From contig CAIXIJ010000069.1 of the NCBI GenBank assembly GCA_903919455.1, positions 1-53,546 of the forward strand: DNA of 53,546 nt, written 5' to 3'. Every line of letters begins with the position of its first letter. Position 1 is the first letter of the stretch. The DNA comes from an uncultured Acidimicrobiaceae bacterium. Its GTDB lineage: Bacteria > Actinomycetota > Acidimicrobiia > Acidimicrobiales > Ilumatobacteraceae. A program made the translations under genes and the position numbers. Below, piece after piece: positions 9,827 through 28,287 of the stretch. A model generated the notes under the pieces. The model was not told the origin of the DNA. It was given only the letters and a program-made list of their open reading frames with translations, and made no database searches.

Positions 9827-9830
<4 letters not shown>
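8310..9830 (-). CDS. nuoM: NADH-quinone oxidoreductase subunit M
   Basis: A 506-residue antiporter-like proton-pumping subunit. Diagnostic segments are KVPLFPLHTWLPDAHTQAPT, the KRLVAYSSVAHLGF helix and GVPGLNGFVGEF. The start is the GTG at 9830, which overlaps the nuoL stop by four bases (GTGA) and gives the family N-terminus VIDFPILTLLV; the open frame runs 134 codons further upstream inside nuoL but has no family similarity. It is translationally coupled to both neighbours. Confidence 0.96.
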
Positions 9831-11731
<1,901 letters not shown>

Positions 11732-11735
11732 CACA

Positions 11736-12053
11736 TCAACCCTTCAACTCGGCGAGATCGTCGGTGGTGGCGTTGGGCCGGCGACGCAGGATGGCCACGA
11801 TGATGCCAAGGCCAACCACCACTTCGGCGGCCGCCACGACCATGACGAAGAACACGGTGGTCTGCCCACCGATGTCGCCCAGCTTGCGGGCCATGGCTAC
11901 GAACGTGAGGTTCACAGCGTTGAGCATCAGCTCCACACACATGAACAGCACCAGAGGGTTGCGGCGCACCATCACACCCACCATGCCGATGGAGAAAAGG
12001 GCAGCAGCGAGGATGAGATACCACGTGGTGGTGGGGTGGATGGAAGCGATCAT
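11736..12053 (-). CDS. nuoK: NADH-quinone oxidoreductase subunit K
   Basis: A 105-residue, three-helix subunit of the complex I membrane arm. The conserved helix [14 protein letters not shown] carries the glutamate of the proton path, and a second one is in [15 protein letters not shown]. The ATG shares a base with the nuoJ stop (TGATG). The C-terminal tail ([16 protein letters not shown]) is hydrophilic and typical. Confidence 0.96.
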
Positions 12054-12616
12054 CAGGCTTCGCTCTCCTGCATCTCGCCCTTGCGCGGCTTGCGCGCCAG
12101 CATGACGGTGCCGACGACAGCGATCACCAACAGCACCGACGTGAGTTCGAACGCCAGAACATGCGAGCTGAACAGATCGCGAGCGAGCGCCTTGATGTTG
12201 CCGTCGTGCAATTGACCACCACCGGGTGCCGGAACTTCGAGGCCCGTGCCCGTAACCGCAGTGCGGGCCTCACGCGACACCACTACAGCAGCCACCACAA
12301 GACCGAACACACCAACGCCGACTGCAGCGGCGATGGGCCGCTGCACCTTGAACGGCTCGACGCGCAGGTTCTCCGCGCGATCGACACCGAGCAGCATGAT
12401 GACGAACAGGAAGAGCACCACGATGGCACCGGCGTACACGATTACCTGCACGGCCGCCAAGAAGTTCGCCTGTTGTGCAACGAAGAGCACGGCCACACCG
12501 AACAGGGTGAGGATGAGGCTGAGTGCCGCATGCACCGGGTGATTGCGGACGATCACGCCGACGGCACCGCCGAGCACCATGGCTGCGGCAACGACGAAGA
12601 CGAAGAGTTCCATCAT
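12053..12616 (-). CDS. nuoJ: NADH-quinone oxidoreductase subunit J
   Basis: A 187-residue five-helix membrane subunit. The conserved third helix region [20 protein letters not shown] contains the pi-bulge segment that couples quinone reduction to pumping in known complex I structures. The start is the first of two adjacent ATGs (12616), overlapping the nuoI stop by four bases. The frame is open upstream into nuoI but that part is not NuoJ-like. Confidence 0.95.
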
Positions 12617-13305
12617 CGCGTCACCGACTTCACGGTCTTCTCCACCTTGTCGGCCTTCGGGGTGTCGGCTTCGGTCTGCGTTGCCTCGGCGGCGCGCACG
12701 CCGTAACCGAGCTCGCTGCTCCAACCCACGGCGCCGACGAAGTCGGCATCGCCAGCCGCAGCCGTCGCACGCATCCAGCCACTGGTGAATACGTCTTCGC
12801 CTTCGCGCCAGTCTTCCCACGGGAGTTGCTTGGGCTTGCCGTCGTCACCAACGAGCAGTTCGGCCTTGCTGTACACCGCGTCGCGTCGGTTGGTGAAGCT
12901 GAACTCGAAGAGCTTGCTCTCCGTGATGGCTTCAGTGGGGCAGGCCTCCACGCACAGGTCGCAGTGGATGCAGCGCAGGTAGTTGATCTCGTAGACGAAG
13001 CCGAAGCGCTCGCCGGGCGAGGTGGGTTCCTGCGGATCGTTGTCGGCGCCGCGCACATAGATGCACTTGGCGGGGCACACACCGGCGCAGAGCTCGCAGC
13101 CGATGCACTTCTCCATGCCGTCCTCATAACGGTTGAGAACGTGACGGCCATGCATACGTTCGGGCTTGGCGATCTTCTCGTCGCGCCCTTCGGTCTTCTT
13201 GCCCCTCTTGGCAACGCGTCCGCCGCTGTACGGCGTGGTGACACGTTCACCACCGAAGATGCGGTGCTGTTTCAGCGTGACGAGGAATCCGTCGAGGTAT
13301 CCCAT
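12613..13305 (-). CDS. nuoI: NADH-quinone oxidoreductase subunit I (2x[4Fe-4S])
   Basis: A 230-residue ferredoxin-like subunit carrying clusters N6a and N6b. Two complete motifs are visible, [12 protein letters not shown] and [12 protein letters not shown], each with the fourth cysteine donated to the other cluster. It starts at the ATG at 13305, which shares one base with the nuoH stop; the long upstream open frame is a shadow of nuoH. It has a C-terminal tail of some 40 residues rich in Ala, Lys, Glu and Thr that is not needed for the fold and looks poorly conserved. Confidence 0.96.
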
Positions 13306-14522
13306 CAGAACATCGCCCCCTCTCGGTCGCGGTTGCGGGCACTCACCTTGGTGGCATACGACAGCAGCCAGGCTGCAGCGCCAAGTACCACCAGGCAGAT
13401 GACACCGACGAGTGCTCGGTTCCAGTTGTTGTCCTGCCCGACGCGGAACGCGGCAAGCAGCATGAACCAACCCAGCGCAAGCGGGATCAGCAGCTTCCAG
13501 CCCAGGTTCATGAGTTGGTCGTAGCGCATACGAGGCAGCGTGGCACGGAACCACACGTACATGTACAGGAACACGAGCACCTTCAGAAGGAAGAGCACGG
13601 TGCCGGCAAAGGGCCCCAGGAACCCGAGCGTGATGTTGACGCCGCTGAACCGGATGGGCTGCGGCCCACCGAAGAACAGCGTCACGATGACGCCGCTCAT
13701 GGTGATGGTGTTCATGAACTCGGCGAGATAGAAGAGCGCGAAGCGGATGCTGGAGTACTCGGTGTTGAAGCCACCCACCAGTTCCTGCTCGGCCTCCACT
13801 AGGTCGAATGGCGGTCGGTTCAGTTCGGCCGTGGCGGCGATGAGGAAGATCACGAAGGGCACCACACCGGTGGCGATCACGTGCCAGCGGCTGAGGCTGC
13901 TCTGTGCGACGACGATGCCGTTGGTGCTCAGCGTGCCAGCCACGAGGATGACGGTGGCGAGGGCGAGACCGAGGGCCGCCTCGTAACTCACCATCTGCGC
14001 CGAAGCGCGAACCGAACCCAGCAGCGGGTACTTCGAACCCGAGCTCCAACCGGCGAGCATGATGCCGTAGATGGCGATGCTGCTGAGCGCGAGCAGCAAC
14101 AACACACCGATGGGCGGATCGGCCAGCTGCAGCTTCGTGGCATGACCGAGGATGATCACCGTGCCGTCCTTGCCATTACTGAAGTCGCCACCCAACGGGA
14201 TGACGCTCCAGACCAGGAAGGCGGGCACGAAGGCCAGGTATGGAGCCAGGATGAACACGAACCGGTCACTGCGATCCGGGATGAGGTCTTCCTTGAAGAA
14301 CAGCTTGATGCCATCGGCGAGTGTCTGCAGCAAACCCTTCGGCCCGGCCTTGTCGGGACCGATGCGGTTCTGCATGTACGAGATGACCTTGCGTTCGAAC
14401 CACACCATGAGCATCGTGCCCACGAGGCCGACGACGAAGACCACGAGAACCTTGATCAGGACGATCAGGAACTCCGTGCTCCAGAGCTTGATGTGATCGA
14501 GGAGTTGGTCGAGCGCGAGCAT
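13305..14522 (-). CDS. nuoH: NADH-quinone oxidoreductase subunit H
   Basis: A 405-residue subunit forming the heel of complex I and much of the quinone channel. Marks are the loop [23 protein letters not shown] (in part), [10 protein letters not shown] and the acidic [19 protein letters not shown] region facing the quinone chamber. The frame, length and junctions are clean (TGATG with nuoG). Confidence 0.97.
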
Positions 14523-16921
14523 CAGATGGTCTCGATTCGCACGTCGTTCACCGGCGCAAAGCAGTCGATGAGTTCACCCACGTTGGGGCCGGGCTGGTTG
14601 AAGGGCACCCATGCGGTGCCACGCAACACGGTGTCGTCGGCAACTGCTCGGAACACCACGCTGGTGCGAGTGCCCGACACCTTCACCTCGCTGCCATCGC
14701 TGGTACCGACACGCTCGAGATCGAGCGGGTGGAGGTGCACGGTGGCACCCGGTGCCAGATGGGCCAGCGACGGCGACTGAACGGTGGAGATGGCCTTGTC
14801 GTACAACACGCGGCTCACCACAAGGCGGTACTCGTAGGCGTTGCGCTCGGGCACTGCCGGCAGCGGAATCTCCACCGCGTCGAGGTCGGTGGGCACCCCG
14901 GCGAGCACGCCATCGCCAGCCACCGATGCAACCGTGACGTCTTCGTAGCCCGACACGTTCTCGGCGATGGAGGCGGTGATGTCGGCGACCGATGAGTAAC
15001 CGAGATCGGTTCCCAACTCCAGCGCCAACTCTGCAGCAATCATCCAGTCGGCTCGGGTGGAACCTGCAGGCGTGACTTCGCGGGCGAGCGCCGTGACGCG
15101 ACCTTCCAGGTTCGTGTGCGTGCCGGCCTTCTCGGCATAGGCGCTGGCGGCCAGCACCACGTTGGCCTGCTGCGAGGAACCGGTGAGGAAGGTGTCGACT
15201 GCGATGATCCGCGGCACTGCCTTCAGCGCACGGCGCGCAAGGTTGGTGTCGGGGAAGTCGGCCAACGGGTCGGCGCCCACCAGCACCAGGCACTCGATCT
15301 TGCCGTCGGCTGCTGCCTGCAGCATGCCGCGAGTGTCGAGGCCGCCAGCGCCAGCACGCATGCCCACGCGGAGTGCGCCCACCACGTTGCCACGACGGAA
15401 CGCCGTGAGCACCTTGGCGCCGGGCACCGCAGCGCGAACTTCGTTCAACGCTGCGATGGTGGCCGCCGAGGACTCGGCGAGGTTTGCACGACCCACCACG
15501 ATGACAACGTTGCCCTTGGCGAGCTGAACAGCGACATCGGCGTCGGACAAGGTTGCGGCGACTGCAGCCGCTTGCGTGCCCGGCTCGTAGGCCACATGAC
15601 GCCATGCGTACGACGTGAGACCGGTCTGCTTCGGAGCGAACTCGATGATGCGGCTGCGACGCTTGGCGGCTGCATCGCGCAGACGCAGGTACAGCACCGG
15701 CAACTCTTCCTTGAGATCCGGTGCGAGCAGGACGATGGTGGCAGCGTTCGCAGCCTCGTCGATGGTGGCAGGCGACTCGGCCAGCAGACCATTCGGCAGG
15801 CCATCACCCATCTGGGCATACACGTTCGGCGTGCCAATGACATCGTGACCGAGACGAGCCCATGCGTGAGCGTCTTCGTTCGTGCCACGCGCACCACCGA
15901 TGATGCCGATGCTGTTCGCCCCACCTGCGGCCAGCGCCTCGGAGATGAGGGCAGCGGCTTCCGCCATGGCGGCGTTCCAGGTAACCGGCTGGAACCCGTC
16001 GCCGGAGCGGACGAGAGGCTGCAGCACGCGCTGATCGCTCTTCACGCTCTCGAAGTTGAAGCGACCGCGGTCGCACAGCCAACCATGGTTCACGGGATCG
16101 CTGTCCACGCCCATGTAGCGCAGCAGTTCGTCGCGGCTGCTCTGCACCACGGTGCGACAACCAACGGAGCATGACGTGCAGGTGCTCTCCTGCTGCGACA
16201 GGTCCCAGGGGCGGGCCTTGAAGCGGTACGGCTGCGCCGTGAGCGCACCCACCGGGCAGATCTGCACAGTGTTGCCGCTGAAGTAACTGGCGAACGGCTC
16301 GTCGGGGAACGTGGTGATGTGCGTGTTGTTGCCGCGGCTGTTGAAGTGGATCAGCGCATCGCCGGCGACTTCGTCGGCGAAGCGGGTGCAGCGATCGCAC
16401 AGGATGCAACGCTCGCGGTCGAGCAGCACGAGGTCGCTGATGGGGATCGGCTTCTCGTAGTGACGCTTCTCCTCCAGCATCCGGCTCTCGCCAGGGCCGT
16501 GGCTGAAGGCCTGATCTTGCAACGGGCACTCGCCGCCCTTGTCGCAGACCGGGCAGTCGAGCGGGTGGTTGGCGAGCAGCAGTTCGAGGATGCCCTCTTG
16601 CATGCGCTTGGTGGTGGGCGACTCGGTGTCCACCTTCATGTCGGGCGACACGGGCACCATGCAGCTCACGGTGACGGCGGGGCCGCGGCCGGAGTCGGCT
16701 TCGACGAGGCACATACGGCACTTGCCAACCGGGGTCATGCGTTCGTGGTAGCAGAAGCGCGGGATGTACTCGCCGGCGTCGGCAGCTGCATCGATGAGCA
16801 ACTGACCCTTGCGCGCGGTGTGCGGACGGCCGTTGATGGTGATCTGCACCGCGTTGGGGTCGGGCGGCGGTGCCTCCGCCTCGGTGTCCGGATTCGCGGC
16901 CGAGGGCTCAGTGGTGGTCAT
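14522..16921 (-). CDS. nuoG: NADH-quinone oxidoreductase subunit G
   Basis: A 799-residue iron-sulfur subunit of the peripheral arm. In order it has a [2Fe-2S] ferredoxin domain (FCYHERMTPVGKCRMC), the His-Cys motif region (HPLDCPVCDKGGECP), the CILCDRCTRF cluster, and a molybdopterin oxidoreductase-like domain opened by CTSCSVGCRTVV. That last motif corresponds to the additional N7-type cluster region. The start at 16921 overlaps the end of nuoF by 14 bases; the open frame continues upstream in nuoF without similarity. The N-terminal ~22 residues are acidic and proline-rich. Confidence 0.95.
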   Translation of the reverse strand: MTTTEPSAANPDTEAEAPPPDPNAVQITINGRPHTARKGQLLIDAAADAGEYIPRFCYHERMTPVGKCRMCLVEADSGRGPAVTVSCMVPVSPDMKVDTESPTTKRMQEGILELLLANHPLDCPVCDKGGECPLQDQAFSHGPGESRMLEEKRHYEKPIPISDLVLLDRERCILCDRCTRFADEVAGDALIHFNSRGNNTHITTFPDEPFASYFSGNTVQICPVGALTAQPYRFKARPWDLSQQESTCTSCSVGCRTVVQSSRDELLRYMGVDSDPVNHGWLCDRGRFNFESVKSDQRVLQPLVRSGDGFQPVTWNAAMAEAAALISEALAAGGANSIGIIGGARGTNEDAHAWARLGHDVIGTPNVYAQMGDGLPNGLLAESPATIDEAANAATIVLLAPDLKEELPVLYLRLRDAAAKRRSRIIEFAPKQTGLTSYAWRHVAYEPGTQAAAVAATLSDADVAVQLAKGNVVIVVGRANLAESSAATIAALNEVRAAVPGAKVLTAFRRGNVVGALRVGMRAGAGGLDTRGMLQAAADGKIECLVLVGADPLADFPDTNLARRALKAVPRIIAVDTFLTGSSQQANVVLAASAYAEKAGTHTNLEGRVTALAREVTPAGSTRADWMIAAELALELGTDLGYSSVADITASIAENVSGYEDVTVASVAGDGVLAGVPTDLDAVEIPLPAVPERNAYEYRLVVSRVLYDKAISTVQSPSLAHLAPGATVHLHPLDLERVGTSDGSEVKVSGTRTSVVFRAVADDTVLRGTAWVPFNQPGPNVGELIDCFAPVNDVRIETI

Positions 16922-18314
16922 CGACAACTCCGACGCTGACAGGGATGTGCTTGCGTTCCACGATCTTGGCTTCGAACTCGTCACGGAACAGCGTGAGCGC
17001 GGAATGGACCGGGGCATAGGCCGACGGACCGACGAAGCAGATGGTGGTCATCTTGTAGGGGAAGGGCGCAGCTTCGAGGCCGAGCTTGGAGCTGGCAGCG
17101 TGCGGGAAGTTGCCCGGGCAGATGGATTCGCCGATCTCGAACATCTGGTCGAGGTCCGCTCGTGTTCCACGGCCATCCACCACTCGCTGCAGCACACGCT
17201 CGAGCCAGGTGCCGCCCTCGCGGCACGGCGTGCACTGGCCGCAACTCTCAGCGGCGTAGAAGTGCGTCAGCGTGAGGGCAGCCTTCGGGATGTCGGTGGT
17301 GTGGTCCATCACCATGATGGCGCCGGAGCCCAGCATCGAGCCGGCTGCACCGACAAGGCGACCTTCGAAAGGAAGGTCGAGTTGCTCGGGCGTGAACCAC
17401 GGGGCCGAACCGCCGCCGGGAACAAACGCCTTCAGTTCGTTTCCGTTACGGATGCCCTGGCAGAACTCCTCGCCGTAGAGCAGATCGCGGAACGTCGTGG
17501 TGCCGTTGATGATCTCGTACACGCCGGGGCGATTCACGTGGCCGCTCACGGCCACCATGCGAGTGCCGGGCGACGTGGCGGTGCCGATGGCGGTGTATGC
17601 GGCGGTGCCGTTGATGGCCAACCACGGCAGGTTCGACAGCGTCTCGACGTTGTTCACGATGGTGGGCTGGCCGTAGAGGCCGACGGCAGCCGGGAAGAAC
17701 GGAGGCTTCAGACGCGGCTCGCCACGCTTGCCCTCGAGGCTCTCGATCAGCGCCGTCTCTTCGCCCACCACGTAGGCGCCGGCACCCCAGTGCAGCACGA
17801 TGTCGACGCTGAACTTGGTGCCGAGAATGTTCTTGCCGACATAACCCGCCGCGTAGGCCTCGTTGAGTGCGTTGGCGACTCGTTCGTGCGCCAACGGCAT
17901 CTCGCCACGGATGTACAGGAACACCTGCGACAGGCCCGCCGCGTATGCAGCAATGAGGCAACCCTCCACCAACTGGTGCGGGTCGCGCTCCATCAGCAGA
18001 CGATCCTTGTAGGTGCCTGGTTCGCTCTCGTCGCCGTTCACCACGAGATAGCGCGGGAACTTGCCAGCGGGCATGAGGCCCCACTTGGTGCCAGCGGGGA
18101 AACCAGCGCCGCCGCGACCGAGCACGGTGGCTGTCTTCACCTCGTCATGCACCTCGGTGGGCGACTTCTTCAATACGGCCTTCAGGCCGTCGTAACCGCC
18201 GGTGGCGTGATAGCGCTCGAGCATGTAACCGTCCTCGAGATGGAACCGCGAGGTGACCACCTTCGGACGATCGCCGTCGTCGATGTAACCGGCTGCCCAG
18301 GGATAGGTGCTCAT
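16908..18314 (-). CDS. nuoF: NADH-quinone oxidoreductase subunit F (NADH/FMN, [4Fe-4S])
   Basis: A 468-residue flavoprotein that takes the hydride from NADH. GRGGAGFPAGTKWG is the glycine-rich nucleotide/FMN-binding loop; SCGQCTPCREG with a later cysteine in ESICPG binds cluster N3. It shares a 4-base ATGA overlap with nuoE and a 14-base overlap with nuoG, so E, F and G are translationally coupled. Length is usual. Confidence 0.97.
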   Translation of the reverse strand: MSTYPWAAGYIDDGDRPKVVTSRFHLEDGYMLERYHATGGYDGLKAVLKKSPTEVHDEVKTATVLGRGGAGFPAGTKWGLMPAGKFPRYLVVNGDESEPGTYKDRLLMERDPHQLVEGCLIAAYAAGLSQVFLYIRGEMPLAHERVANALNEAYAAGYVGKNILGTKFSVDIVLHWGAGAYVVGEETALIESLEGKRGEPRLKPPFFPAAVGLYGQPTIVNNVETLSNLPWLAINGTAAYTAIGTATSPGTRMVAVSGHVNRPGVYEIINGTTTFRDLLYGEEFCQGIRNGNELKAFVPGGGSAPWFTPEQLDLPFEGRLVGAAGSMLGSGAIMVMDHTTDIPKAALTLTHFYAAESCGQCTPCREGGTWLERVLQRVVDGRGTRADLDQMFEIGESICPGNFPHAASSKLGLEAAPFPYKMTTICFVGPSAYAPVHSALTLFRDEFEAKIVERKHIPVSVGVVDDHH

Positions 18315-18919
18315 TGGGCTGCCTCCGGCATCCAGGCCGGAACCACAGGAGCATCAGGCGACGCCACACCTGCGGCCTTGTCGGCAGGAATCTGCTGACG
18401 AACGCGGGCCAGAGTTCCGTGCACGGGAATCTCGCCCTCGAGGCGACCGGCGCGCAGGTCGTCGATCAACTTGTCGAAGTTGGTGGTGGTCATGCGATGG
18501 CAGTGGCGGTAATTCACCTGCATGTTCGGCGCCTCGGTGCACGCCGCCTGACACTCGGCGTGCTCCAGGGTGAACAAGCCATCGGAGGTGGTGCCGCCGG
18601 CCTTCACGCCGAGCGTCTGCTCTGCGTGGTGCATCAGTTCATCGGCGCCCAGCAACTGGCAGCTCATCGTGCCGCAGATGTTGACGAGGTACTTGCCCAC
18701 CGGCACCATCTTGAACATCTCGTAGAACGTGCACGTGCCCAGTACCTCGGCCGAGGTGGCACCCACGAGCTCGGCGATGTGGGCGATGGCATCGTCGGTG
18801 ATGTAACCGTTCTGTTGCTGCGACAGGTGCAGCAACGGAATGGTGGCCGAGCGAGCCTTCGGATAGCGGCCGATGATCTCCTTGGCCAACATAACGTTGG
18901 CTTCGTTGAGCCGACTCAC
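18311..18919 (-). CDS. nuoE: NADH-quinone oxidoreductase subunit E ([2Fe-2S])
   Basis: A 202-residue thioredoxin-fold subunit binding cluster N1a through CGTMSC (C-x4-C) and CQAAC (C-x3-C). The family block AKEIIGRYPKARSATIPLLHL sits close to the N-terminus, so the GTG at 18919 is chosen as start; the open frame reaches 19051 but would overlap nuoD and adds non-family residues. The C-terminal 35 residues (VRQQIPADKAAG and beyond) are a proline-rich tail. The 76-base gap to nuoD is the only sizeable one within nuo. Confidence 0.92.
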   Translation of the reverse strand: MSRLNEANVMLAKEIIGRYPKARSATIPLLHLSQQQNGYITDDAIAHIAELVGATSAEVLGTCTFYEMFKMVPVGKYLVNICGTMSCQLLGADELMHHAEQTLGVKAGGTTSDGLFTLEHAECQAACTEAPNMQVNYRHCHRMTTTNFDKLIDDLRAGRLEGEIPVHGTLARVRQQIPADKAAGVASPDAPVVPAWMPEAAQ

Positions 18920-18995
18920 CTGTCCACCGTCCTCGTGGTGCCCAACGGCATCTCCGCTTCGCTGTGATGCCTGCGTACGACAGAGTCGAATCGGT

Positions 18996-20330
18996 TCATC
19001 GGTCCACCTCTCCCAATACGGGGTCGACCGATGAGATGACGGCCACGGCATCGGCCACGAGACCGCCGCGCATCATGTGCGGCAGACACTGGATGTTCAC
19101 GAACGATGGGGCCCGCACGTGCATGCGGTACGGGGTGGAGGAACCGTCGCTGGCGATGTAGCAGCCGATCTCACCGCGCGGACTCTCGATGGCCACGTAC
19201 ACCTCACCCTCGGGCACCTTGAAGCCCTCGGTGAAGATCTTGAAGTGGTGGATGAGGGCTTCCATGCTCTCGTCGATGCGAGCACGCGGCGGCGGCGTGA
19301 CCTTCTTGTTCTGAATGCGGTAGTCGCCCGACGGCATGCGATCCAGGATCTGGTGCACGATGCGGATGCTCTCGCGAATCTCGTTGAGGCGGATGGCGTA
19401 GCGGTCGAAGGCGTCGCCGTAGCTGCCCACCACCACGTCGAACTCAACTTCCGGATAGCGCAGGTACGGCATGTCGCGACGGAGATCCCACGGCACGCCG
19501 GTGCTGCGCAGGATGGGGCCGGTAGCGCCGAGCGCCGTGGCCTCCTGAGCCGTGATGACACCCACCCCCTGCAGACGGTCGCGCCAGATGGGCTGACCGG
19601 TCATGAGGATGTCGTACTCCTCTAGCCGCGGCGGAATCATGTCGAGGAGGTGCAGCACGTCGTCGCGCCAGCCATCGGGCAGGTCGGCAGCCACACCGCC
19701 GGGACGGATGAAGTTGTGGTTCATCCGCAGGCCCGTGACCTTCTGGAAGAAACGCAACACTTCCTCGCGCTCACGCCACCCGTAGATCATCATGCTGACT
19801 GCGCCGATGTCCATGCCGTTCGTGGCGAGGAAGAGCAGGTGGCTGCTCATGCGGTTCAGTTCGCTAAGCAACATGCGCATCCAGACGGCGCGCTCGGGAA
19901 TGTCGTTCTCGATGCCGAGCAACTGCTCCACCGCAAGGCTGAACACGAGCTCGTTGTTCAACGGGCTGAGGTAGTCCATGCGGGTGACGTTCGTGCCGCC
20001 CTGCATGTAGGTGAGTTGCTCGCCGGTCTTCTCCATGCCGGTGTGCAGGTACCCGATAATCGGCTTGCAGCGCAGCACGGTCTCGCCCTGGAGCTCCAGC
20101 ATCAGGCGCAGCACACCGTGGGTGCTCGGGTGCTGCGGACCCATGTTGATGACCATCGTCTGATCCTCGGAAGGGTCGACGGGAAGATCGCCGAGCTTGG
20201 CAACTTCAGCCTCACTCATGCGCAGCACAGCCCCCACCTCGCGCAGCAGCTCGCGGGCGGTGATCTCGCTGCGCGGCTTCAGACCCTGCTGGGGCTCGTT
20301 GCCGCCGCGGATGACGTCGACAATGCTCAT
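18996..20330 (-). CDS. nuoD: NADH-quinone oxidoreductase subunit D (49 kDa)
   Basis: A 444-residue subunit forming the quinone headgroup site. MGPQHPSTHGVLR near residue 62 holds the conserved histidine-rich loop, and the C-terminal PRGEIGCYI and YRMHVRAPSF blocks are typical. NuoC and NuoD are separate here, with a 4-base ATGA overlap. The first 45 residues precede the core and are variable. Confidence 0.97.
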   Translation of the reverse strand: MSIVDVIRGGNEPQQGLKPRSEITARELLREVGAVLRMSEAEVAKLGDLPVDPSEDQTMVINMGPQHPSTHGVLRLMLELQGETVLRCKPIIGYLHTGMEKTGEQLTYMQGGTNVTRMDYLSPLNNELVFSLAVEQLLGIENDIPERAVWMRMLLSELNRMSSHLLFLATNGMDIGAVSMMIYGWREREEVLRFFQKVTGLRMNHNFIRPGGVAADLPDGWRDDVLHLLDMIPPRLEEYDILMTGQPIWRDRLQGVGVITAQEATALGATGPILRSTGVPWDLRRDMPYLRYPEVEFDVVVGSYGDAFDRYAIRLNEIRESIRIVHQILDRMPSGDYRIQNKKVTPPPRARIDESMEALIHHFKIFTEGFKVPEGEVYVAIESPRGEIGCYIASDGSSTPYRMHVRAPSFVNIQCLPHMMRGGLVADAVAVISSVDPVLGEVDR

Positions 20331-20854
20331 GACGAAGCTCGCTTCGAGAAGTCGGCGGTGAACTGCACCGGGATACGGCTGGGGTCGTCGTCCTTACGGA
20401 GCGGGTGGCCTTCCCAGTCCTCGGGCATGAGGATGCGCGTGAGGTCGGGGTGGTCGGTGAACGCGATGCCAAACATGTCGAACACCTCGCGCTCCATGGC
20501 CTCGGCTCCGGGGTACAGGTCGAAGGCGCTGGCGATGCTGGCATCGGACTCCGGCACCTGCACCCGCAGACGGATGCGCTCGCGCCGCTCGATGCTGAGC
20601 AGATTCACCACCACTTCGAACCGCTCGGCAGCGATGCCCTCAGGCAGGGCGCGGCCCATGTGCAGCAGGTAATCCACCGCGGTGAGGTCGGCGCACATCG
20701 TGAAGGTTTCGTCGAGCAACGTGCGCAGCAACGCGATGTAACCATCACGCGTGGGGTGCAGCACTCGCTGGCCGCGGCTGTCGCTGAGCGGCACGCCGTA
20801 GAGCACTGACGGCTCGGGCGCGGTGCCGGGCTCGGGGCTGGTGACCTCGCTCAT
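20327..20854 (-). CDS. nuoC: NADH-quinone oxidoreductase subunit C (30 kDa)
   Basis: A 175-residue subunit that packs against NuoD. The C-terminal block HPDLTRILMPEDWEGHPLRKD is the family signature, and REVFDMFGIAF precedes it. It starts four bases after the nuoB stop and is coupled to nuoD by an ATGA overlap. Confidence 0.96.
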   Translation of the reverse strand: MSEVTSPEPGTAPEPSVLYGVPLSDSRGQRVLHPTRDGYIALLRTLLDETFTMCADLTAVDYLLHMGRALPEGIAAERFEVVVNLLSIERRERIRLRVQVPESDASIASAFDLYPGAEAMEREVFDMFGIAFTDHPDLTRILMPEDWEGHPLRKDDDPSRIPVQFTADFSKRASS

Positions 20855-20857
20855 GGC

Positions 20858-21511
20858 CTACCGGGTTCCCAGAATGACGGGCACCGGATTGTCGCCAGCA
20901 GCAATCTCTGTGACGTGCACGTTGGCACCTGCACCGGTCTCCTGACGACGGCGCAGCAACTGACCGTCTTCGATCAGTTGGTGCAGCGTCTCGATGGCGT
21001 GGATGAGGGTCTCCGGGGTTGGAGGGCAACCCGGCGCGTACACGTCGACCGGCACCACTTGGTCTACGCCCTGCACGATGGCGTAGTTGTTGAACATGCC
21101 GCCACTGCTGGCGCACACGCCCATGCTGATGACCCACTTGGGCTCCATCATCTGGTCGTACACCTGGCGCAGCACCGGGGCCATCTTCTGGCTGACCCGG
21201 CCGGCCACGATCATGATGTCGGCTTGACGCGGCGATGCGCGAAAGACCTCCATGCCGAAGCGACTGAGGTCGTAGTGCGCCGCACCCGTAGCCATCATTT
21301 CGATAGCGCAGCAAGCAAGGCCGAACGAGGCAGGCCATGAACTGCGGCTGCGAGCCCAGTTCACCAGATCTTCCAGCTTGGCGGTGATGGCGTTGTGATC
21401 GATGCCACCCATGCCATCGTCGAGGATTCCCTGCACGAAGCTCCTGCCGCTGGCCGGTACTCCCTCGCTGGCCACAGCCTCGTTCGTCATGTCGTCGCTC
21501 ATCCCACTCAC
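20858..21511 (-). CDS. nuoB: NADH-quinone oxidoreductase subunit B (cluster N2)
   Basis: A 217-residue subunit carrying the terminal [4Fe-4S] cluster N2 through the tandem cysteines of [18 protein letters not shown] and [10 protein letters not shown]. The GTG at 21511 overlaps the nuoA stop by four bases (GTGA) with an AGGAAA ribosome binding site upstream; an ATG three codons later (21502) is a good alternative. The N-terminal 30 residues before the core are acidic and variable. Confidence 0.95.
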
Positions 21512-21969
21512 GCTGCCGTTTCCTGGGGGCGACCTTCGAGACCCACACGACGGATGGTGGAGGTGGAGGTGCGCTCGGGCGAGAGTGCAGCGTCGACTCG
21601 GCGCTGCACGTTCACCGGACCCCACTCCAGCGCACCGCGCGCCACCACGTACACGAAGGCTGCAAAGAACACCACGCTGAACGCGACCATCTCCCAGAGC
21701 GCGTAGGCACCGAGGAATGCTCGGTCGACGGCGAAGGGGTAGATGAAGATGATTTCGATGTCGAACATGATGAACAGCATCGCGACGACGTAGAAGGTGA
21801 CCGGGAAGCGTTCCGGTGGTTCGCGGCTGGGCACGATGCCGCACTCGTAGGGCGCCGACTTGGCAGCCGACGGACGACGCGGCGCGAGAAGGCGCGATGC
21901 ACCGAAGCTCAGGGCTCCGAACAACGTCGCCAGTACGAGGAGTGCGATGACCGGCAGGTACTGGCCCAT
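21508..21969 (-). CDS. nuoA: NADH-quinone oxidoreductase subunit A
   Basis: A 153-residue three-helix membrane subunit. The loop with [15 protein letters not shown] contains the conserved ECG motif near the quinone site, followed by the [18 protein letters not shown] helix. The C-terminal ~30 residues ([15 protein letters not shown] and beyond) extend past the usual end. It begins the nuo part of the operon only three bases after the preceding unknown membrane protein, so nuo has no promoter gap of its own. Confidence 0.96.
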
Positions 21970-21972
21970 GAA

Positions 21973-22788
21973 TCAGACCTTCTGTGGAAGTGCCTTGGCG
22001 TCCAGGTTGGCGCGGACGTAGCGGTCGCGTCGGTGGAGCAGCCAGCACAGGATGAGGAAGATGATGAGCGACGAGATGCAGATGATGGCCGCCGGCTTAC
22101 GCTTCGAGCCGAGGTCGCGGATCATGTACACGTAGTCGTGGGCGCGCGTGGTGTCGAAGACGGGACGGGCTGGAGCACGGCCAGGCTCGGTTCTCTGGGG
22201 CACCAACGGTGCCGTCTCAACCAGCGCGTAATGCGGGTCGTGGAAGAACGCCAGGAAGTCGATGCGGTCATCCCAGAACGTGGGGTGCCGCTCGCCGCCC
22301 TTCTCGAACACGTTCACCACAGCGAATTCACCCGCCGCAAGTGCACCGGATTCCTCGAGGATCACCGCGCCGGCTGAACCGGCCTGCTGGAACGACGGAA
22401 GGGCCGGATCGAGCTTGGACCACCCATCGGTGATGAGCTGCTGGCTGACCGCAGCGGCATCGGCGGGCGCGTCGCCGGTGGGCGCGAATGGCACCCGAAT
22501 GACGCCCACTTCCTGCAACAACGCACTGTCGCGAATAACGGTTTCACCCGCCACCGGCTTCCAAGAGGAATCCGGCCCGAGCAAGCCCTTGCCGTACGAC
22601 CACCAGATGGCGCCCATGAGGAACATCCAGCCAGCCAGCGCAGCAAACGCCACGAGGAAGCCAAGACGGGCTCCCATGTTGGTGCCGAGGATCAGATAGA
22701 TGCTGCCGCAGAGCACAGCCACCGAGATGATGACGATGAGGGTGCCGCGAAGCTCCCATTCCCAGTTGACGGCCAGAAGTGCACTCAT
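21973..22788 (-). CDS. Unknown membrane protein between the cytochrome bc genes and nuoA
   Basis: A 271-residue protein with two N-terminal membrane segments (about 14-34 and 45-65), a long extracytoplasmic-looking part (70-220) rich in Ala, Pro and Glu, and one C-terminal segment (230-250) followed by a basic tail. No known family is recognised and there are no haem, iron-sulfur or copper motifs. Its place between the dihaem cytochrome c and nuoA, with a one-base overlap on one side and three bases on the other, marks it as a likely accessory subunit or assembly factor of the bc complex. The ATG at 22788 fits a GAGG ribosome binding site; a GTG just upstream (22791) is possible. Confidence 0.85.
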
Positions 22789-23870
22789 CACAGACCTCGC
22801 ACGTATTCGACGACAGCCTTGATCTGCTCATCGGTGAGCAGATGGCCGAAACCAGGCATACGGCCAGAACCTTGGCTCTGCATGCCGTACTTCTTGCCGT
22901 ATGAGGAACCCGCCTTGATGAAGTTGATCATGTCGGACTCGTTCGGGAAGTGGGTGTTGGTGGCTCCTCCGGTGAGGTTCCAGCCGAAGGCACCCTGACC
23001 GGTTGCTACCGGGTTGCCGTAGCTCCAGCCCTGCGTGTGGCAGCGTGCGCAACTGTAGGCACCGCTGTTCAGGTCCAGGTTGAAGAGCGCCTCGCCCTCG
23101 CTGGCGTCGGGGTTCGCCTTCAGGTAGCTGTCGACGGCCTTCTGGATCTCGTCCTTGGTGGGCTGCGGCAGCGTGCCGCCGTCGCACACCGAGGGATCCG
23201 CGGTATCGGAGAACGGCAGCCCCGCCGGGTTCAGGCAGCTGTCGGGCTCGATCTGGATGGTCTCGAGATACACCAGCAGCGTTTCGATGTTCTGCTCGGT
23301 CATCGGGCCGCCACCCGGAGCACCCCATGCCGACATCGGCGAGAAGGGGCGGCCGTAGTTCAGGATGAACCGAACCTCTTCCTTGCTGAATCGGTAGAAC
23401 ACCGTGTTCAGTGCCGGTGCGTACCAGCTGACCGCGCGCACCTCTCCGGTCTTGGGGTCGGTGACGGCGTAGGGCGCCTGGCCACCGGTGCCCTTCAGAC
23501 CACCGTGGCAGCCGGCGCAGTTGAAGCCGCCGTTCGCCGTGGTCTGGAACAATTCCTCGCCCCAGCCAACGAACTCCTCATGCTTCCTATCGACAGCGCC
23601 GGCCTGACGGCCAGGCTCGAGAATCCAGTACACGGGAAGGCCGATGACCACGGTGACCAGCAGCAGCACGCCGAACAGCTGGAAACGCTCGAGGCGCGAA
23701 CCTTCCATCTGTTCGTCGTCGTAGTACTGCTTCCGGTTCGGTGCCATCTCGATCTCGGAACCGAGTTCCTTGCGAGCCGACGAGTTGTTGAGGAAGTAGT
23801 AGGTGATCCAGCCCAGCAGAATGACCACGAAGATCACCCATGCAACAGCAGTGGTATTGAGTGCAACCAT
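22788..23870 (-). CDS. Membrane-bound dihaem cytochrome c of the bc complex
   Basis: A 360-residue protein with two N-terminal membrane segments (about 8-28 and 65-85) and a periplasmic part with two CxxCH haem c sites, CAGCH (118-122) and CARCH (274-278). SGRMPGFGHLL near the C-terminus can supply a methionine ligand. In actinobacterial quinol oxidase supercomplexes a dihaem cytochrome c (QcrC) passes electrons from the Rieske protein to cytochrome aa3; this protein probably has that role. It differs from mycobacterial-type QcrC in having two N-terminal helices and a roughly 150-residue spacer between haems. Its ATG shares one base with the Rieske stop. Confidence 0.9.
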   Translation of the reverse strand: MVALNTTAVAWVIFVVILLGWITYYFLNNSSARKELGSEIEMAPNRKQYYDDEQMEGSRLERFQLFGVLLLVTVVIGLPVYWILEPGRQAGAVDRKHEEFVGWGEELFQTTANGGFNCAGCHGGLKGTGGQAPYAVTDPKTGEVRAVSWYAPALNTVFYRFSKEEVRFILNYGRPFSPMSAWGAPGGGPMTEQNIETLLVYLETIQIEPDSCLNPAGLPFSDTADPSVCDGGTLPQPTKDEIQKAVDSYLKANPDASEGEALFNLDLNSGAYSCARCHTQGWSYGNPVATGQGAFGWNLTGGATNTHFPNESDMINFIKAGSSYGKKYGMQSQGSGRMPGFGHLLTDEQIKAVVEYVRGL

Positions 23871-24730
23871 CAGTGCGAGCCTCCGCCGCCGGTGATGCAG
23901 TGCGGACCCTCGGCCTCTTGGCCGGAGGTGTTGATGCCGATCGGGGCACCGGTGATGACGGTTGACGTGTCGATAACGACGTCGCCCGCCGCGCTGACGG
24001 TGACAGCGAAGTGATCCATACCACGGGGGGCGGGACCGGCCTTCTTCTCACCGACGCGGTTGTACTGAGAACCGTGGCACGGGCACTCGAACCACTGGCT
24101 GCTGGCGCACTGCGGCACGCGGCAACCGAGGTGCGGGCACTTCTGATACATCGCCACAACGCCTTCGGACATACCGCCGAGCAGCGGCGCGTACTGGGGA
24201 ACACCCTTCGCCTTCGGCAGCGCCTCCGGCGGGTACTGCGTGAGATACGAACGAGCGCTCGACGAATAGAAGAAGCCGGCGTTGCTGCGGATGCTGGCAA
24301 TGATGTCGTCGATCTTGCCGACGTTCACCTTGCCGCCGAACACGGGCGCAGCAGTGGGCCACAGGAATGCCACGAAGGCACCAGCGGCGAACGTGCCGAG
24401 GCCGGCGCTCATCAGCGTGACAGTGGCCCGGTTGAGGAACTGGCGGCGGTTCACACCGATCTGCTCCGCATCGGGAGCAACCCAGGTGACCGGGGCAGTG
24501 GACTCGGGCTTCACGAGGCTGGCCTCGCGAGCTTCGGTGGCGGCGCGCTCGACCTGGCGGCCCGTGGGTGCGGGACCGTCGATCTCGGCGTCCTTGTCGC
24601 GACGGCGCGTCTCGCGGCTGAGGGCACCGGCTCCGCGCACGTCGCTCTTGCGAGCGGCAGTGAGCAGGGCCACGGCGAACAGCGCGACGAGCACGACGGC
24701 GGCGATAGCGATAATGGCGGCGGGACTCAT
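23870..24730 (-). CDS. Rieske [2Fe-2S] protein of the cytochrome bc complex
   Basis: A 286-residue protein. A first hydrophobic helix (about 4-24) is followed by a charged linker, a twin-arginine-like NRRQFLNRA motif, a second helix (about 105-128) and the Rieske domain. The cluster motifs are CPHLGC (198-203) and CPCHGS (216-221), both complete, so the [2Fe-2S] centre should assemble. Extra cysteines near CASSQWFEC may form the usual disulfide. The ATG at 24730 lies 13 bases after the preceding stop; an upstream in-frame ATG at 24769 would overlap that gene. It transfers electrons from quinol at the Qo site to cytochrome c. Confidence 0.94.
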   Translation of the reverse strand: MSPAAIIAIAAVVLVALFAVALLTAARKSDVRGAGALSRETRRRDKDAEIDGPAPTGRQVERAATEAREASLVKPESTAPVTWVAPDAEQIGVNRRQFLNRATVTLMSAGLGTFAAGAFVAFLWPTAAPVFGGKVNVGKIDDIIASIRSNAGFFYSSSARSYLTQYPPEALPKAKGVPQYAPLLGGMSEGVVAMYQKCPHLGCRVPQCASSQWFECPCHGSQYNRVGEKKAGPAPRGMDHFAVTVSAAGDVVIDTSTVITGAPIGINTSGQEAEGPHCITGGGGSH

Positions 24731-24743
24731 GACTGCAGATGCC

Positions 24744-25514
24744 TCACAGTTCGAAGAAGATGCCGTCACGCCACGGGAGCGTGAAGTTGAAGCCGGGGCC
24801 GCGGAAGAACGAACCGATGATGACGAGCACGGCCCAGAACATGAGGTGCACGGTCATCAACGAGGTCGCGAACTTGCGATCTTCGGGCTTGTTGGAAGGG
24901 TTCTTGTCGATGAAGGGAGCCAGGATCAGCACGATCATGCCCACACCGGGAATGGTCACACCGGCAACCATCGGGTGGAACATGGTGAGCAGTTCCTGAA
25001 GACCGAGGAAGTACCACGGAGCCTTCGATGGGTTCGGCGTCTTGTTGATGTTCGCCTGCTGCAGCAGCGGAGCGTTCACGAAGATGCTGAAGAAGAAGGT
25101 GAACGACAGGCAGGCCAAGGCAGCGACGAACTCAGCGGCGAGCAGGTGCGGCCACGTGTGCACCTTGTCGACCGGCGAGGCCTTCACATCCTGAATAGAG
25201 CCGCTCTTCACCACGGTGAGCAGACGCTGGGTGTGGCCACCGGGGCCAGCGCCCATCGGCACGCCACCACCGGCAGGAGCTGCGGCCACCACACTGGCGA
25301 CCTTCTCCTGCACGGCCACGCCACCGCCAGCACCATCAGCCTGAGCCTTACGGGACTTGCTGCGCTCGAGGAGGTGGGCCGGGATACGCGGATCCGCGGC
25401 GGGTTCGCTGCTCGCTGCAGCGCCGGCGGCATCGGCCGCGGCACCGCTCTCTTCGGCAGCCTTGTCGCGAGCAGCTTGTGCTCGCTTGAGGAGGTGTTCG
25501 GGAATCTCAGTCAT
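24744..25514 (-). CDS. Cytochrome b subunit-IV-like protein (PetD-type C-terminal half)
   Basis: A 256-residue protein whose last 140 residues hold three membrane helices (about 121-147, 179-203, 217-237) like PetD of b6f complexes or QcrC of Bacillus. The Qo-site PEWY motif is replaced by APWY (165-168, in SKAPWYFLGLQELL), so the usual quinol-site glutamate is missing. The first 100 residues are hydrophilic, rich in Ala and Gly, and carry two related motifs, IPEHLLKRAQ (4-13) and IPAHLLERSK (44-53). The same motif begins the divergent monohaem cytochrome c at 27472. A function in assembly or protein contact is inferred. Confidence 0.92.
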   Translation of the reverse strand: MTEIPEHLLKRAQAARDKAAEESGAAADAAGAAASSEPAADPRIPAHLLERSKSRKAQADGAGGGVAVQEKVASVVAAAPAGGGVPMGAGPGGHTQRLLTVVKSGSIQDVKASPVDKVHTWPHLLAAEFVAALACLSFTFFFSIFVNAPLLQQANINKTPNPSKAPWYFLGLQELLTMFHPMVAGVTIPGVGMIVLILAPFIDKNPSNKPEDRKFATSLMTVHLMFWAVLVIIGSFFRGPGFNFTLPWRDGIFFEL

Positions 25515-25531
25515 CGATCGTCTCCGTCAGC

Positions 25532-26317
25532 TCACAGGGGACCCGAGATGCCGCCGTCTTTGCGGACTCTCCAGAAGTGGATCGCCATGAAGATGACGAT
25601 CACGAACGGGAACATCAGCACGTGCAGCACATACCATCGCAGCAGCGTGTCGCCGCCGATTTCCTTGCCACCGAGCAGCACGAACCGCACCTGGGTACCG
25701 ATGACCGGCGAGTAGCCCATCATGTTGGTACCCACGGTCACTGCCCAGAGAGCCAGCTGGTCCCACGGCAGCAGATAGCCGGTGAACGACAGCAGCAGGG
25801 TGAGCATCAGCAGCACCACACCGATGACCCAGTTGAACTCACGCGGCGGCTTGTAGGCGCCGTGATAGAAGACGCGGGCCATGTGCAGGAACACGCTGAG
25901 CACCATCAGGTGGGCACCCCATCGGTGCATGTTGCGCACAAGTAACCCGAAGGTGACCGAGGTTTGCAGGTTCGAGATGTCGTTCCAGGCCTGCACGTCG
26001 GTGGGGCGGTAGAAGAACATCAAGAAGATGCCGGTGACCGTCAGCAGGATGAAGAGGAAGAAGCTGAGGCCGCCGAGGCAGAGCGTGTAGCTCACCTTCA
26101 CGGCATGTCGCTTCACCTTCACCGGGTGCAGGTGGTACAGCACCGAGTTCATGATGACGTAGCTGCGGTTACGCGGGCTGTCGGTGTAGCCCTTACGGAA
26201 GATGGAACCGGGCCGGAAGATGGAACTCCAGGCCTGGCTGCCCTGCACCGAATCGACCGTCTTGTTCAGACGGTCTTTCACTGTGGGCTTGGGAGTGTCG
26301 TCGAGGATCTTTGCCAT
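25532..26317 (-). CDS. Cytochrome b6-like protein (N-terminal half of split cytochrome b)
   Basis: A 261-residue four-helix cytochrome b. The bis-histidine ligands are H131 and H145 in helix B and H232 and H247 in helix D; the 15-residue step in helix D is the b6f type, whereas bc1 cytochromes have 14. A cysteine (C80, in TLCLGG) sits exactly where plastid b6 Cys35 (YCLGG) covalently holds haem c-n. FYRPT, YLLPWDQ and the C-terminal GGISGPL also match b6. It passes electrons across the membrane from the Qo to the Qi site. The haem attachment is inferred from the alignment by eye, not shown. Confidence 0.94.
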   Translation of the reverse strand: MAKILDDTPKPTVKDRLNKTVDSVQGSQAWSSIFRPGSIFRKGYTDSPRNRSYVIMNSVLYHLHPVKVKRHAVKVSYTLCLGGLSFFLFILLTVTGIFLMFFYRPTDVQAWNDISNLQTSVTFGLLVRNMHRWGAHLMVLSVFLHMARVFYHGAYKPPREFNWVIGVVLLMLTLLLSFTGYLLPWDQLALWAVTVGTNMMGYSPVIGTQVRFVLLGGKEIGGDTLLRWYVLHVLMFPFVIVIFMAIHFWRVRKDGGISGPL

Positions 26318-26743: not shown

Positions 26744-27232
26744 TCAGCCCTTCTTCACCAGTGGGCGACCGAAGGTGCTGGTGGCGACTTCGGTGCCGGC
26801 GACCACATCGCCGCGCTTTTGCCACTTGCTCCACAGGTAGATCAACAGACCGAAGAACCACAGGTGGATGACGACCACCACGATGTCGCGGACGGCCTCG
26901 TACGACATGATGATGGGCCAATTGCCACCGAGCGCCTGCGGCTTGAAGATGTCGCCGGGGCCGTAGATGATGTTGCTCTTCGACCAGTCCAGTTCCTTGT
27001 CGGCGTGGTCGATGAACTGGTGGGGGCACACACCGAAGGCAATGAACATCACGCCGAAGGCGTACACCGAAGCCAGCATGGCCTCACCCCAACTGGTGGG
27101 GGTGCCCTTGGGGCGGCGCTTCGAATAGGGGATCACGATGAGCGCGCCAGCGGTGGCCAGGAAGAACGAAAACAGGAACGCCACGTTCATGCCGGGCCAA
27201 TGCAATGGGTTCGTTTCGAATGCGATCAGCAC
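26744..27232 (-). CDS. Unknown small membrane protein, first gene of the bc-nuo operon
   Basis: A 162-residue protein with three hydrophobic segments (about 15-36, 50-70 and 112-135). A conserved-looking loop GVCPHQFIDHADKELDW lies between the second and third, with one cysteine and two histidines that could bind a metal or haem, but no classical motif is present. No family is recognised. The GTG at 27232 is selected by a strong GGAGAGGG ribosome binding site seven bases upstream; the open frame continues to 27400 without support. Only three bases separate it from the ferredoxin gene, so the two products may act together, for example as a membrane anchor for the ferredoxin. Confidence 0.82.
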   Translation of the reverse strand: MLIAFETNPLHWPGMNVAFLFSFFLATAGALIVIPYSKRRPKGTPTSWGEAMLASVYAFGVMFIAFGVCPHQFIDHADKELDWSKSNIIYGPGDIFKPQALGGNWPIIMSYEAVRDIVVVVIHLWFFGLLIYLWSKWQKRGDVVAGTEVATSTFGRPLVKKG

Positions 27233-27471: not shown

Positions 27472-28287
27472 GTGACCGAGATTCCCGAGCACCTGCTGAA
27501 GCGGAGCAAAGACGCCAAGGCCAAGGCCGATGGCGCCGAGGCGCCTGCCGACGCACCCGCTGCCCCCTCCTCTGCGCCAGCCACCACCGACGCTGCCGCC
27601 CCCGCTGTGGCGGCCAAGGCCGCTGCGCCCGCGGTGCCAGCCGCACCGGTGGTCAAGCCCGATACTCCGGTGGTGGCTGCCTACAAGGCCCGTCGCAAGA
27701 TCCCGGTGTGGGCCATGCTCACGCTGAGCATCCTCCCCGTGTGGGCGTTCATGTACGTGTTGGCGATGCAGCCCGTCACGGCGAAGGCCACCGGCCCACT
27801 CGGCGATGGCGCCGTGGTGTACTCCGGCAACTGCTCCGGCTGCCATGGTGGCGGCGGCGAAGGCGTCGGCTCCGCCTATGGCTTCGTGAACGGTTCCGTC
27901 ATGAAGACGTTCCCGCATATCGAAGATCAGGTCCGCTGGGTGGTGCTCGGCACCAAGGCATATCTCGATGCCGGCGTCAGCGTGTACGGCGACCCGAACC
28001 GCGAAGGCGGCGCGCACATCACCGGCGCCAGCGGTGGCCAGATGCCCGGCTGGAAGGGCAACCTCACCGATGCCGAGATCCTGGCTGCTGTCTGCGACGA
28101 GCGGTACGGCCTCGGCGGCGGCGACGAGGAGAGCGATGAATTCGCCCTGTGGTGCGCCACCGACAGTGCGGTGTACGCGGCACTCGAGTCAGGCGAGGCC
28201 ACCTTCGACAACCTGCACACCGTCATCGCCGATAAAGGCATCATGGAGATCGGCAGCACGCCGATCGCTGGTACCACCGCCGGCTGA
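27472..28287 (+). CDS. Membrane-anchored monohaem cytochrome c
   Basis: A 271-residue protein. Residues 1-75 are a cytoplasmic, Ala/Pro-rich stretch that begins with the motif IPEHLLKRSK also found at the start of the subunit-IV-like protein. One membrane helix (about 80-100) leads to a periplasmic domain with haem site CSGCH (121-125) and the likely axial methionine in GGQMPGWKG. It is transcribed away from the bc-nuo operon and probably carries electrons from it to a terminal oxidase that is not in this window. The start is a GTG without ribosome binding site; TATCGT seven bases upstream suggests a leaderless mRNA. Confidence 0.9.
   Translation: MTEIPEHLLKRSKDAKAKADGAEAPADAPAAPSSAPATTDAAAPAVAAKAAAPAVPAAPVVKPDTPVVAAYKARRKIPVWAMLTLSILPVWAFMYVLAMQPVTAKATGPLGDGAVVYSGNCSGCHGGGGEGVGSAYGFVNGSVMKTFPHIEDQVRWVVLGTKAYLDAGVSVYGDPNREGGAHITGASGGQMPGWKGNLTDAEILAAVCDERYGLGGGDEESDEFALWCATDSAVYAALESGEATFDNLHTVIADKGIMEIGSTPIAGTTAG

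Follow-up and report, generated by a model that had tools for sequence, protein, structure and literature searches.

A b6-type complex III with a closely linked two-cluster ferredoxin gene in Acidimicrobiia and further actinobacterial families

The contig CAIXIJ010000069.1 of an uncultured Acidimicrobiaceae bacterium (assembly GCA_903919455.1), analysed here over positions 1 to 53,546 (the window), contains an operon for a respiratory cytochrome bc complex of the b6 type, in which a gene for a ferredoxin with two [4Fe-4S] motifs directly precedes that for cytochrome b. We give about even credence to the reading that this is a housekeeping complex III, i.e. a b6-type menaquinol:cytochrome c reductase, with the ferredoxin as a cytoplasmic subunit that would exchange electrons with the inner haems. 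The sequence features that suggest it are a split cytochrome b with two histidine pairs, a Rieske protein, a dihaem cytochrome c, the cysteine expected to bind haem c-n, a nearby glutamate and the near-inseparability of the ferredoxin gene. The cytochrome b gene is the only PF00033 gene in the 3.5 Mb genome (the window being its contig C69), and two COX1 matches (527.6 and 94.8 bits) are also present; given this sole gene and the COX1-family oxidase, the complex is taken to be the complex III of the genome.

An earlier note on this DNA had treated the complex as an oddity of one actinobacterium, which the wider survey does not bear out. In an ExtP profile search of 296 sampled genomes of the phylum the window cytochrome b exceeds the cut-off of the ExtP model NF040969 (307.5 against 290 bits), as do proteins from 86 genomes; at a score of at least 284 bits, which excludes two partial matches at contig starts (G242, G013), this type is represented by 97 loci in 96 genomes. 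It is the ordinary complex III of Acidimicrobiia and of further families beyond that class. The accompanying ferredoxin, whose two cluster motifs read CIMCEGCVDICPW and CTRCQLCVDRCPT in the window, was compared in 27 rows, all from the window's own class where the kinship label is known; both CxxCxxCxxxC motifs and the stretch VDICPWKC are invariant in all of them, and mean column identity is 73%. The net charge of these ferredoxins ranges from -8 to -17, against +8.8 for the first 75 residues of cytochrome b, which in the window include the basic motif HPVKVKRH (residues 64-71) ahead of the first helix.

Two whole-genome searches of the 296 genomes placed the ferredoxin gene immediately upstream of cytochrome b in 91 of the 97 loci of this type; for one of the six remaining, G025, there is a contig break, with the ferredoxin at the end of another contig. 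A second set of loci, fetched for a [LY]CLGG motif with at least 2 kb upstream (105, the window and repeats among them), has it directly upstream in 103, i.e. 98 by script and five by inspection, the seven misses of the script comprising five odd reading-frame starts and two true absences (L052, L073). Counted by distinct cytochrome b the ferredoxin adjoins in 92/94, as compared to 78/92 fetched loci for the neighbouring nuo genes (nuoA and nuoB downstream of the complex III genes). The converse relationship is equally close: 93 of 96 dedicated ferredoxin genes adjoin such a cytochrome b, which is cut or broken in two cases, the other three run up against a contig end, and none of the 96 was found away from one. 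The five ferredoxin rows not beside a listed cytochrome b are those of G064 and G170, with a broken or cut one, and of G025, G189 and G234, at contig ends. The 96 include one weak match (G117, 60.7 bits), the other 95 scoring at least 85. A complete-genome example of the arrangement is Aquihabitans sp. G128 (locus L124). The ferredoxin is naturally missing next to a retained cytochrome b of this type at L052 (genome G382), L073 (G118), L200 (G058), L203 (G129), L204 (G151) and L205 (G172).

The cytochrome b itself supports several of the b6-like features on which the earlier note had relied. The proposed split is confirmed by separate genes with PF00033 and PF00032 matches (Table 1); the four-helix and three-helix description derives from these family assignments, and a crude hydropathy scan gave three peaks per protein, missing helix B of cytochrome b. 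Alignment with the b6f structures 2zt9_A, 6rqf_I, 1vf5_A and 7r0w_I places C80 on the cysteine of YCLGG, as had been claimed, and likewise the end of the protein on ISGPL; R252 falls on the arginine of IRK. These positions correspond to Cys35 and Arg207 in b6 numbering. Arg207 is named in PMC9162462. The helix D histidines (232 and 247) are indeed 15 residues apart, those of helix B (131 and 145) being 14 apart. The former spacing is rejected as a mark of b6f: each of the 40 further distinct cytochromes b fetched from the phylum shows it, as do fused Rhodococcus QcrB and the haloarchaeal, Deinococcus and Sulfurovum rows, and among the outgroup rows printed a spacing of 14 is confined to alphaproteobacterial bc1 (Azospirillum).

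The cysteine at the C80 column is found in 98/98 distinct cytochromes b of this type versus 13/40 of other types, as sorted by a profile that was itself built from this type. Since it is kept throughout, C80 is not a matter of chance, and a covalent haem c-n is a sound prediction from this residue. According to PMC12954380, a glutamate as second ligand accompanies a low-potential haem c-n. A glutamate in the first helix of subunit IV, at the column of PetD Phe40 or one off it, is present in 110/110 aligned rows of this type, the window being counted twice and some loci repeated in that alignment. In 23 other rows this place has 15 Asp, 5 Glu and one each of His, Ser and Phe, although L135, among the five with Glu, is itself of this type and slipped through the filter. 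The Qo (outer-site) motif of subunit IV is not PEWY but APWY, both in the window and in 107/109 rows. It is without the Glu of PEWY, which is usually regarded as the proton acceptor.

In the mechanism that we propose, menaquinol would be oxidized at the outer site. One of its electrons would reach a haem-copper oxidase via the Rieske protein and the dihaem cytochrome c, and the second would travel across the haems b to the inner site, to a haem c-n of low potential that is covalently bound and ligated by Glu, and there menaquinone would be reduced. The ferredoxin would be an inner-side subunit docking near the basic start of cytochrome b (HPVKVKRH), so that low-potential electrons from a cytosolic donor could run through it and haem c-n/b-n to menaquinone. 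We infer both this contact and its direction, with entry via the ferredoxin as the default, because a haem c-n near the potential of menaquinone would make entry downhill and exit strongly uphill. In respiration this would parallel the proposal that ferredoxin feeds electrons into b6f during cyclic electron flow in photosynthesis; according to PMC9342900, haem c-n is the proposed conduit from ferredoxin-FNR in b6f, and the docking is itself still a proposal.

In the one open-licence library searched, covered by the titles and abstract openings listed, no description was found of a ferredoxin beside a b6-type complex in actinobacteria. Here genes for a two-cluster ferredoxin and for a cytochrome b with the haem c-n cysteine are almost inseparable in non-photosynthetic respirers. 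If the ferredoxin is a subunit, the idea of entry through haem c-n becomes directly testable, and should that idea be true, complex III would give ferredoxin a direct gate to the respiratory menaquinone pool. The main complex III of a large, little-studied group of actinobacteria looks closer to photosynthetic b6f than to the usual actinobacterial form, which widens a view of actinobacterial respiration so far based largely on Mycobacterium and Corynebacterium with their fused QcrB.

Further clues come from a second, paralogous operon in G091, a member of the window's genus, and in other genomes. Twelve operons of this kind have a two-cluster domain whose end lies 133-205 bases (by profile ends) upstream of cytochrome b, a count that is not a rate, as they were chosen by profile score and neighbour. 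Ten of these (L035, L056, L191-L193 and L195-L199) show, by Pfam, Pyr_redox_2, Fer4_20 and a C-terminal two-cluster domain; of the other two, L194 is cut at a contig start and the G042 operon lay outside the Pfam scan. Rieske and cytochrome c genes lie downstream in most. L035 has both cytochrome b halves in one frame (Pfam), and L056 and the nine later-fetched loci have a separate subunit IV frame. The two-cluster domains score 42-63 bits to the ferredoxin profile, and since other short iron-sulphur frames listed, NuoI-like by place or length, score mostly 33-45 bits, the three lowest are not set apart by score alone. A motif H[LVI][HY]P, 18 residues ahead of the Cys column, is common to both types and absent from the other types shown. 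A relative from the same class, L059, has Gly at the Cys column and shows no four-Cys frame among its listed reading frames. Two of these operons lie at L035:6642-10943 and L056:6112-10678, and nine more at L191-L199. In their gene content these actinobacterial operons resemble the anammox Rieske/cytochrome b-NAD(P) complexes. As a tentative extension of the above, there might be a new class of Rieske/cytochrome b complexes across Actinomycetota. Its eight-iron ferredoxin would be stably bound as a subunit on the inner side and be wired to a haem c-n with a Glu ligand, and the paralogues would swap a ferredoxin-tailed FAD/NAD(P) enzyme onto the same dock.

Several of these observations weigh against a ferredoxin subunit wired to haem c-n. 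At the Cys column, 11 of the paralogue cytochromes b carry Arg and one carries Tyr; as these flavoprotein-bearing forms are without the Cys, an inner-side partner does not need haem c-n. The paralogue check thus strengthens the link to a partner and weakens the haem c-n part, and the Arg/Tyr paralogues may differ from the Cys form in how the inner side works. The H[LVI][HY]P motif also occurs in a Bacteroidota protein and in L059, neither of which shows an iron-sulphur neighbour, the basic motif of cytochrome b is retained in ferredoxin-less loci, and in comparison with 1q90_D the subunit IV Glu lies one residue off PetD Phe40. No ferredoxin is found in the upstream sequence of G058, G118, G129, G151 and G172 despite a kept operon, four of these genomes belonging to one family, f52. 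Neither G382 nor G118 has such a ferredoxin elsewhere in the genome, and given its absence both beside the kept operon and elsewhere in these two, the ferredoxin is not strictly needed. A POR domain was not found in 7/33 ferredoxin-bearing genomes (26 have it), and both ferredoxin-less genomes searched have one. Finally, an operon inherited within one phylum can seem tightly linked without any physical contact of its products.

In the most probable of the alternatives, the complex would be a plain menaquinol:cytochrome c reductase with haem c-n, and the ferredoxin gene would be a passenger, encoding an assembly factor or a free ferredoxin co-expressed to serve other enzymes, without electronic contact. 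The parts of complex III are complete without the ferredoxin, and six genomes have retained the operon but not the ferredoxin beside it. Nevertheless, we consider this alternative rather unlikely in view of the 91/97 adjacency over many families of the phylum, which is tighter than that of the nuo genes, the failure to find any dedicated ferredoxin gene off the operon among the 96, and the retention of a related two-cluster domain, fused to an enzyme, at the same place in the paralogous operons.

An electron-bifurcating exit, in which low-potential electrons from menaquinol would pass from the inner haems to the ferredoxin, and onwards to NADP+, with the high-potential Rieske branch as the driving force, appears improbable. 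Such a scheme has been proposed for anammox Kuste4569-4574 in PMC12954380, which proposes an inner-side iron-sulphur/NAD(P) module on a b6-like cytochrome b with the electron flow opposite to that envisaged here, and the paralogous operons combine like parts, i.e. an FAD/NAD(P) protein with Fer4_20 and a two-cluster domain, cytochrome b, subunit IV, Rieske protein and cytochrome c. However, reduction of a ferredoxin by a haem c-n near -50 mV would be strongly uphill, no flavoprotein is attached in the window, and a complex I gene set adjoins. Slightly less probable still is that the ferredoxin serves as a specific drain for ferredoxin reduced by 2-oxoacid:ferredoxin oxidoreductases; the window's genome does carry POR/KOR genes, but the counts given above (no POR match in seven ferredoxin-bearing genomes, one in each of the two ferredoxin-less genomes searched) speak against it, and co-occurrence of KOR/POR with the ferredoxin was rejected as a link.

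The ferredoxin-linked complex III was also placed among its relatives. The window cytochrome b scores 214.3 bits to PRK03735 (a 'cytochrome b6' subfamily model, which we take to be a Bacillus one) and 122.4 bits to actinobacterial QcrB, whose cut-off is 500. The best 80 of 591 matches are close relatives and include no outgroups, some outgroup rows coming from a plasmid search; those with a name that rank highest belong mostly to Ilumatobacteraceae and to other Acidimicrobiia. The fetched loci comprise this type, a split Thr-bearing kind and a short Cys-bearing kind, both with the Rieske gene first, and Cys-less relatives. Trees were computed in an LG+F+R4 and an LG+C20 run, containing no firmicute or Geobacter rows, and the row L085, with Asn at the Cys column, was excluded from the Cys group in the topology tests. 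Both runs agree on a clade of this type with the Cys-less relatives. In the LG+C20 run this type alone has support of 96/94, and together with the Cys-less relatives and one Bacteroidota row 100/99, while the deeper branches are weak and long branches meet there. In the approximately unbiased (AU) test a single clade of the Cys-bearing rows is rejected (p = 1.5e-5), as is one of the actinobacterial rows (p = 8e-6). Joining this type to cyanobacterial/plastid b6 with the Cys-less relatives left out is rejected as well (p = 0.0098), whereas the grouping of this type, the Cys-less relatives, the one Bacteroidota row and cyanobacterial/plastid b6 is neither shown nor rejected in these trees without firmicute rows (p = 0.326).

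Thus, the Cys is no rarity within the phylum, where several kinds carry it, and is not the property of one clade, since the tree uniting all Cys rows is rejected; the single b6f branch to which the earlier note had assigned the complex is not supported. Its further suggestion of a gain from the b6f/firmicute side lacks support in that form: the genome has no other cytochrome b, the type occurs in 96/296 genomes and its nearest kin are Cys-less paralogues. Horizontal acquisition of a b6f- or firmicute-type complex is the least probable of the alternatives; the b6-like sequence marks and split cytochrome b favour it, and the actinobacterial cytochromes b not forming one clade implies some transfer or deep paralogy, but the type is spread over the phylum, identity of the window protein is 39-43% to b6 against 51-62% to the four Cys-less relatives in the tree, and the Cys rows are not a clade in these trees. 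Contigs titled Phycisphaeraceae, Acidobacteria and Bifidobacterium breve (L100, L125, L134, L142, L166, L170) also bear an Acidimicrobiia-like cytochrome b; they are probably mislabelled or misbinned records of metagenome-assembled genomes and are not counted as a wider spread.

The complex was further compared with known systems. With the cyanobacterial/plastid b6f (PetBDAC) the window complex shares the split cytochrome b/subunit IV, the haem c-n Cys, the Arg207 equivalent and the ISGPL C-terminus. It differs in having a dihaem cytochrome c where b6f has cytochrome f, APWY where b6f has PEWY, another N-terminus before the first helix of cytochrome b, and a ferredoxin and two membrane proteins without family in the operon. 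The Geobacter Ext selenite/tellurite cluster (Rieske ExtO, cytochrome b ExtP, ExtQ) is likewise similar in its cytochrome b, which is above the ExtP cut-off as described, and subunit IV resembles ExtQ at 50.2 bits without reaching the cut-off of 150. Unlike that cluster, the window has no porin, rhodanese or multihaem ExtKLMN, the neighbours being TM3 (a three-helix membrane protein), the ferredoxin, Rieske protein, dihaem cytochrome c, TM2 (a further membrane protein) and nuo genes; the passages of PMC5877670 consulted list no ferredoxin in the published Ext cluster. The anammox complexes Kustd1480-1485 and Kuste4569-4574, described in PMC12954380, also have a b6-like split cytochrome b, a Glu near haem c-n and a proposed cytoplasmic iron-sulphur module, but combine an NAD(P) oxidoreductase with hexa-/octahaem cytochromes, whereas the window pairs a dihaem cytochrome c with a two-cluster ferredoxin that stands alone. 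There is no NAD(P) oxidoreductase beside the window's complex, only the two-cluster ferredoxin, whereas ten paralogous operons do have a flavoprotein, and the Cys-less paralogues (e.g. L035, L191) are in parts nearer to the anammox complexes. Finally, the actinobacterial bcc complex (QcrABC of Mycobacterium and Corynebacterium) shares the Rieske protein, cytochrome b and dihaem cytochrome c, but its QcrB is fused, in contrast to the split window protein with its low QcrB score; Rhodococcus QcrB is 35.6% identical to the window cytochrome b and has Leu at the Cys column.

The Rieske protein shows C-x-H ... C-x2-H in the window and in 104/107 rows, and its best NCBIfam score, to a PetC-like model, is 59.4, under the cut-off of 250. 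Two CxxCH motifs are present in 99/102 rows of the dihaem cytochrome c, which is likely to be the electron outlet on the outside. No match to the cytochrome f family was found among the Pfam matches of the ten proteins scanned, the c-type subunit matching CBB3/Cytochrom_C instead. A monohaem cytochrome c, encoded by a divergent gene, does not reach the CBB3 cut-off (24.2 against 27 bits). Its N-terminus, MTEIPEHLLKR, is that of subunit IV. The underlying peptide IPxHLLxR is found at 25483-25505 and 25363-25385 on the minus strand in the N-terminal part of subunit IV, where the copies read IPEHLLKR and IPAHLLER, and at 27481-27503 on the plus strand in the divergent cytochrome c; the fourth and last occurrence in the genome is inside an apparent major facilitator superfamily transporter. 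Among relatives (repeats included) it is present in 99/111 subunit IV rows and 80/93 divergent cytochrome c rows, and in none of the Rieske, dihaem cytochrome, TM2, TM3, cytochrome b, ferredoxin or reductase rows. This shared peptide points to the divergent cytochrome c being part of one assembly with subunit IV, as a possible partner or subunit, and could be a common docking or assembly tag.

TM3 and TM2 have no Pfam or NCBIfam match over cut-off. TM3 lies 300-2000 bases upstream of cytochrome b in 100/105 loci, and TM2 downstream in 91/92. Their AlphaFold2 models have a mean predicted local distance difference test score of 89.3 (TM3, with three long helices) and 90.4 (TM2). Against the PDB neither fold gave a convincing match: for TM2 the best Foldseek E was 0.2 and the best VIA-align 2 Z 6.4, and for TM3 these were 1.7 and 9.1, the latter to a designed channel and in the range of common helix packings. 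The GTG at 27232 is a likely start of TM3, the searches having been run with 26747-27226.

Table 1. Genes of the complex III locus and its surroundings, in window coordinates
Feature	Positions	Strand	Evidence or remark
TM3, three-helix membrane protein, no family assigned	26744-27232	-	First operon gene
Ferredoxin-like protein, two [4Fe-4S] motifs, 137 aa	26327-26740	-	Pfam Fer4 families
Cytochrome b6-type subunit, 261 aa	25532-26317	-	PF00033 156.6 bits; ExtP NF040969 307.5 bits; PDB alignments
Subunit IV (PetD/ExtQ-like), 256 aa, long N-terminal tail	24744-25514	-	PF00032 34.6 bits
Rieske iron-sulphur protein	23870-24769	-	PF00355 36.6 bits
Membrane-anchored dihaem cytochrome c	22788-23870	-	Two c-type domain stretches; CBB3-type cytochrome c 50.9 bits (Pfam)
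TM2, membrane protein, no family assigned	21973-22791	-	Two N-terminal helices, small alpha/beta domain, one C-terminal helix
nuo genes (complex I)	6805-21969	-	Directly downstream; neighbour, not part of complex III
Monohaem cytochrome c, divergent gene, one hydrophobic stretch	27472-28287	+	PF00034 21.9 bits (cut-off 21.3)

The whole operon is on the minus strand, in the order TM3, ferredoxin, cytochrome b, subunit IV, Rieske protein, dihaem cytochrome c, TM2 and then nuoA onwards. The gap between TM3 and the ferredoxin gene is 3 bases, and the latter ends 9 bases before the start of cytochrome b. A geranylgeranyl-reductase/MenJ-like gene and that of the monohaem cytochrome c sit on the other, divergent side. 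NuoA is identified by a family match, and the remaining nuo names were assigned by reading translations. Together with the genes of complex I, those of complex III make up a cluster of about 20 kb that is read in one direction (6805-27232).

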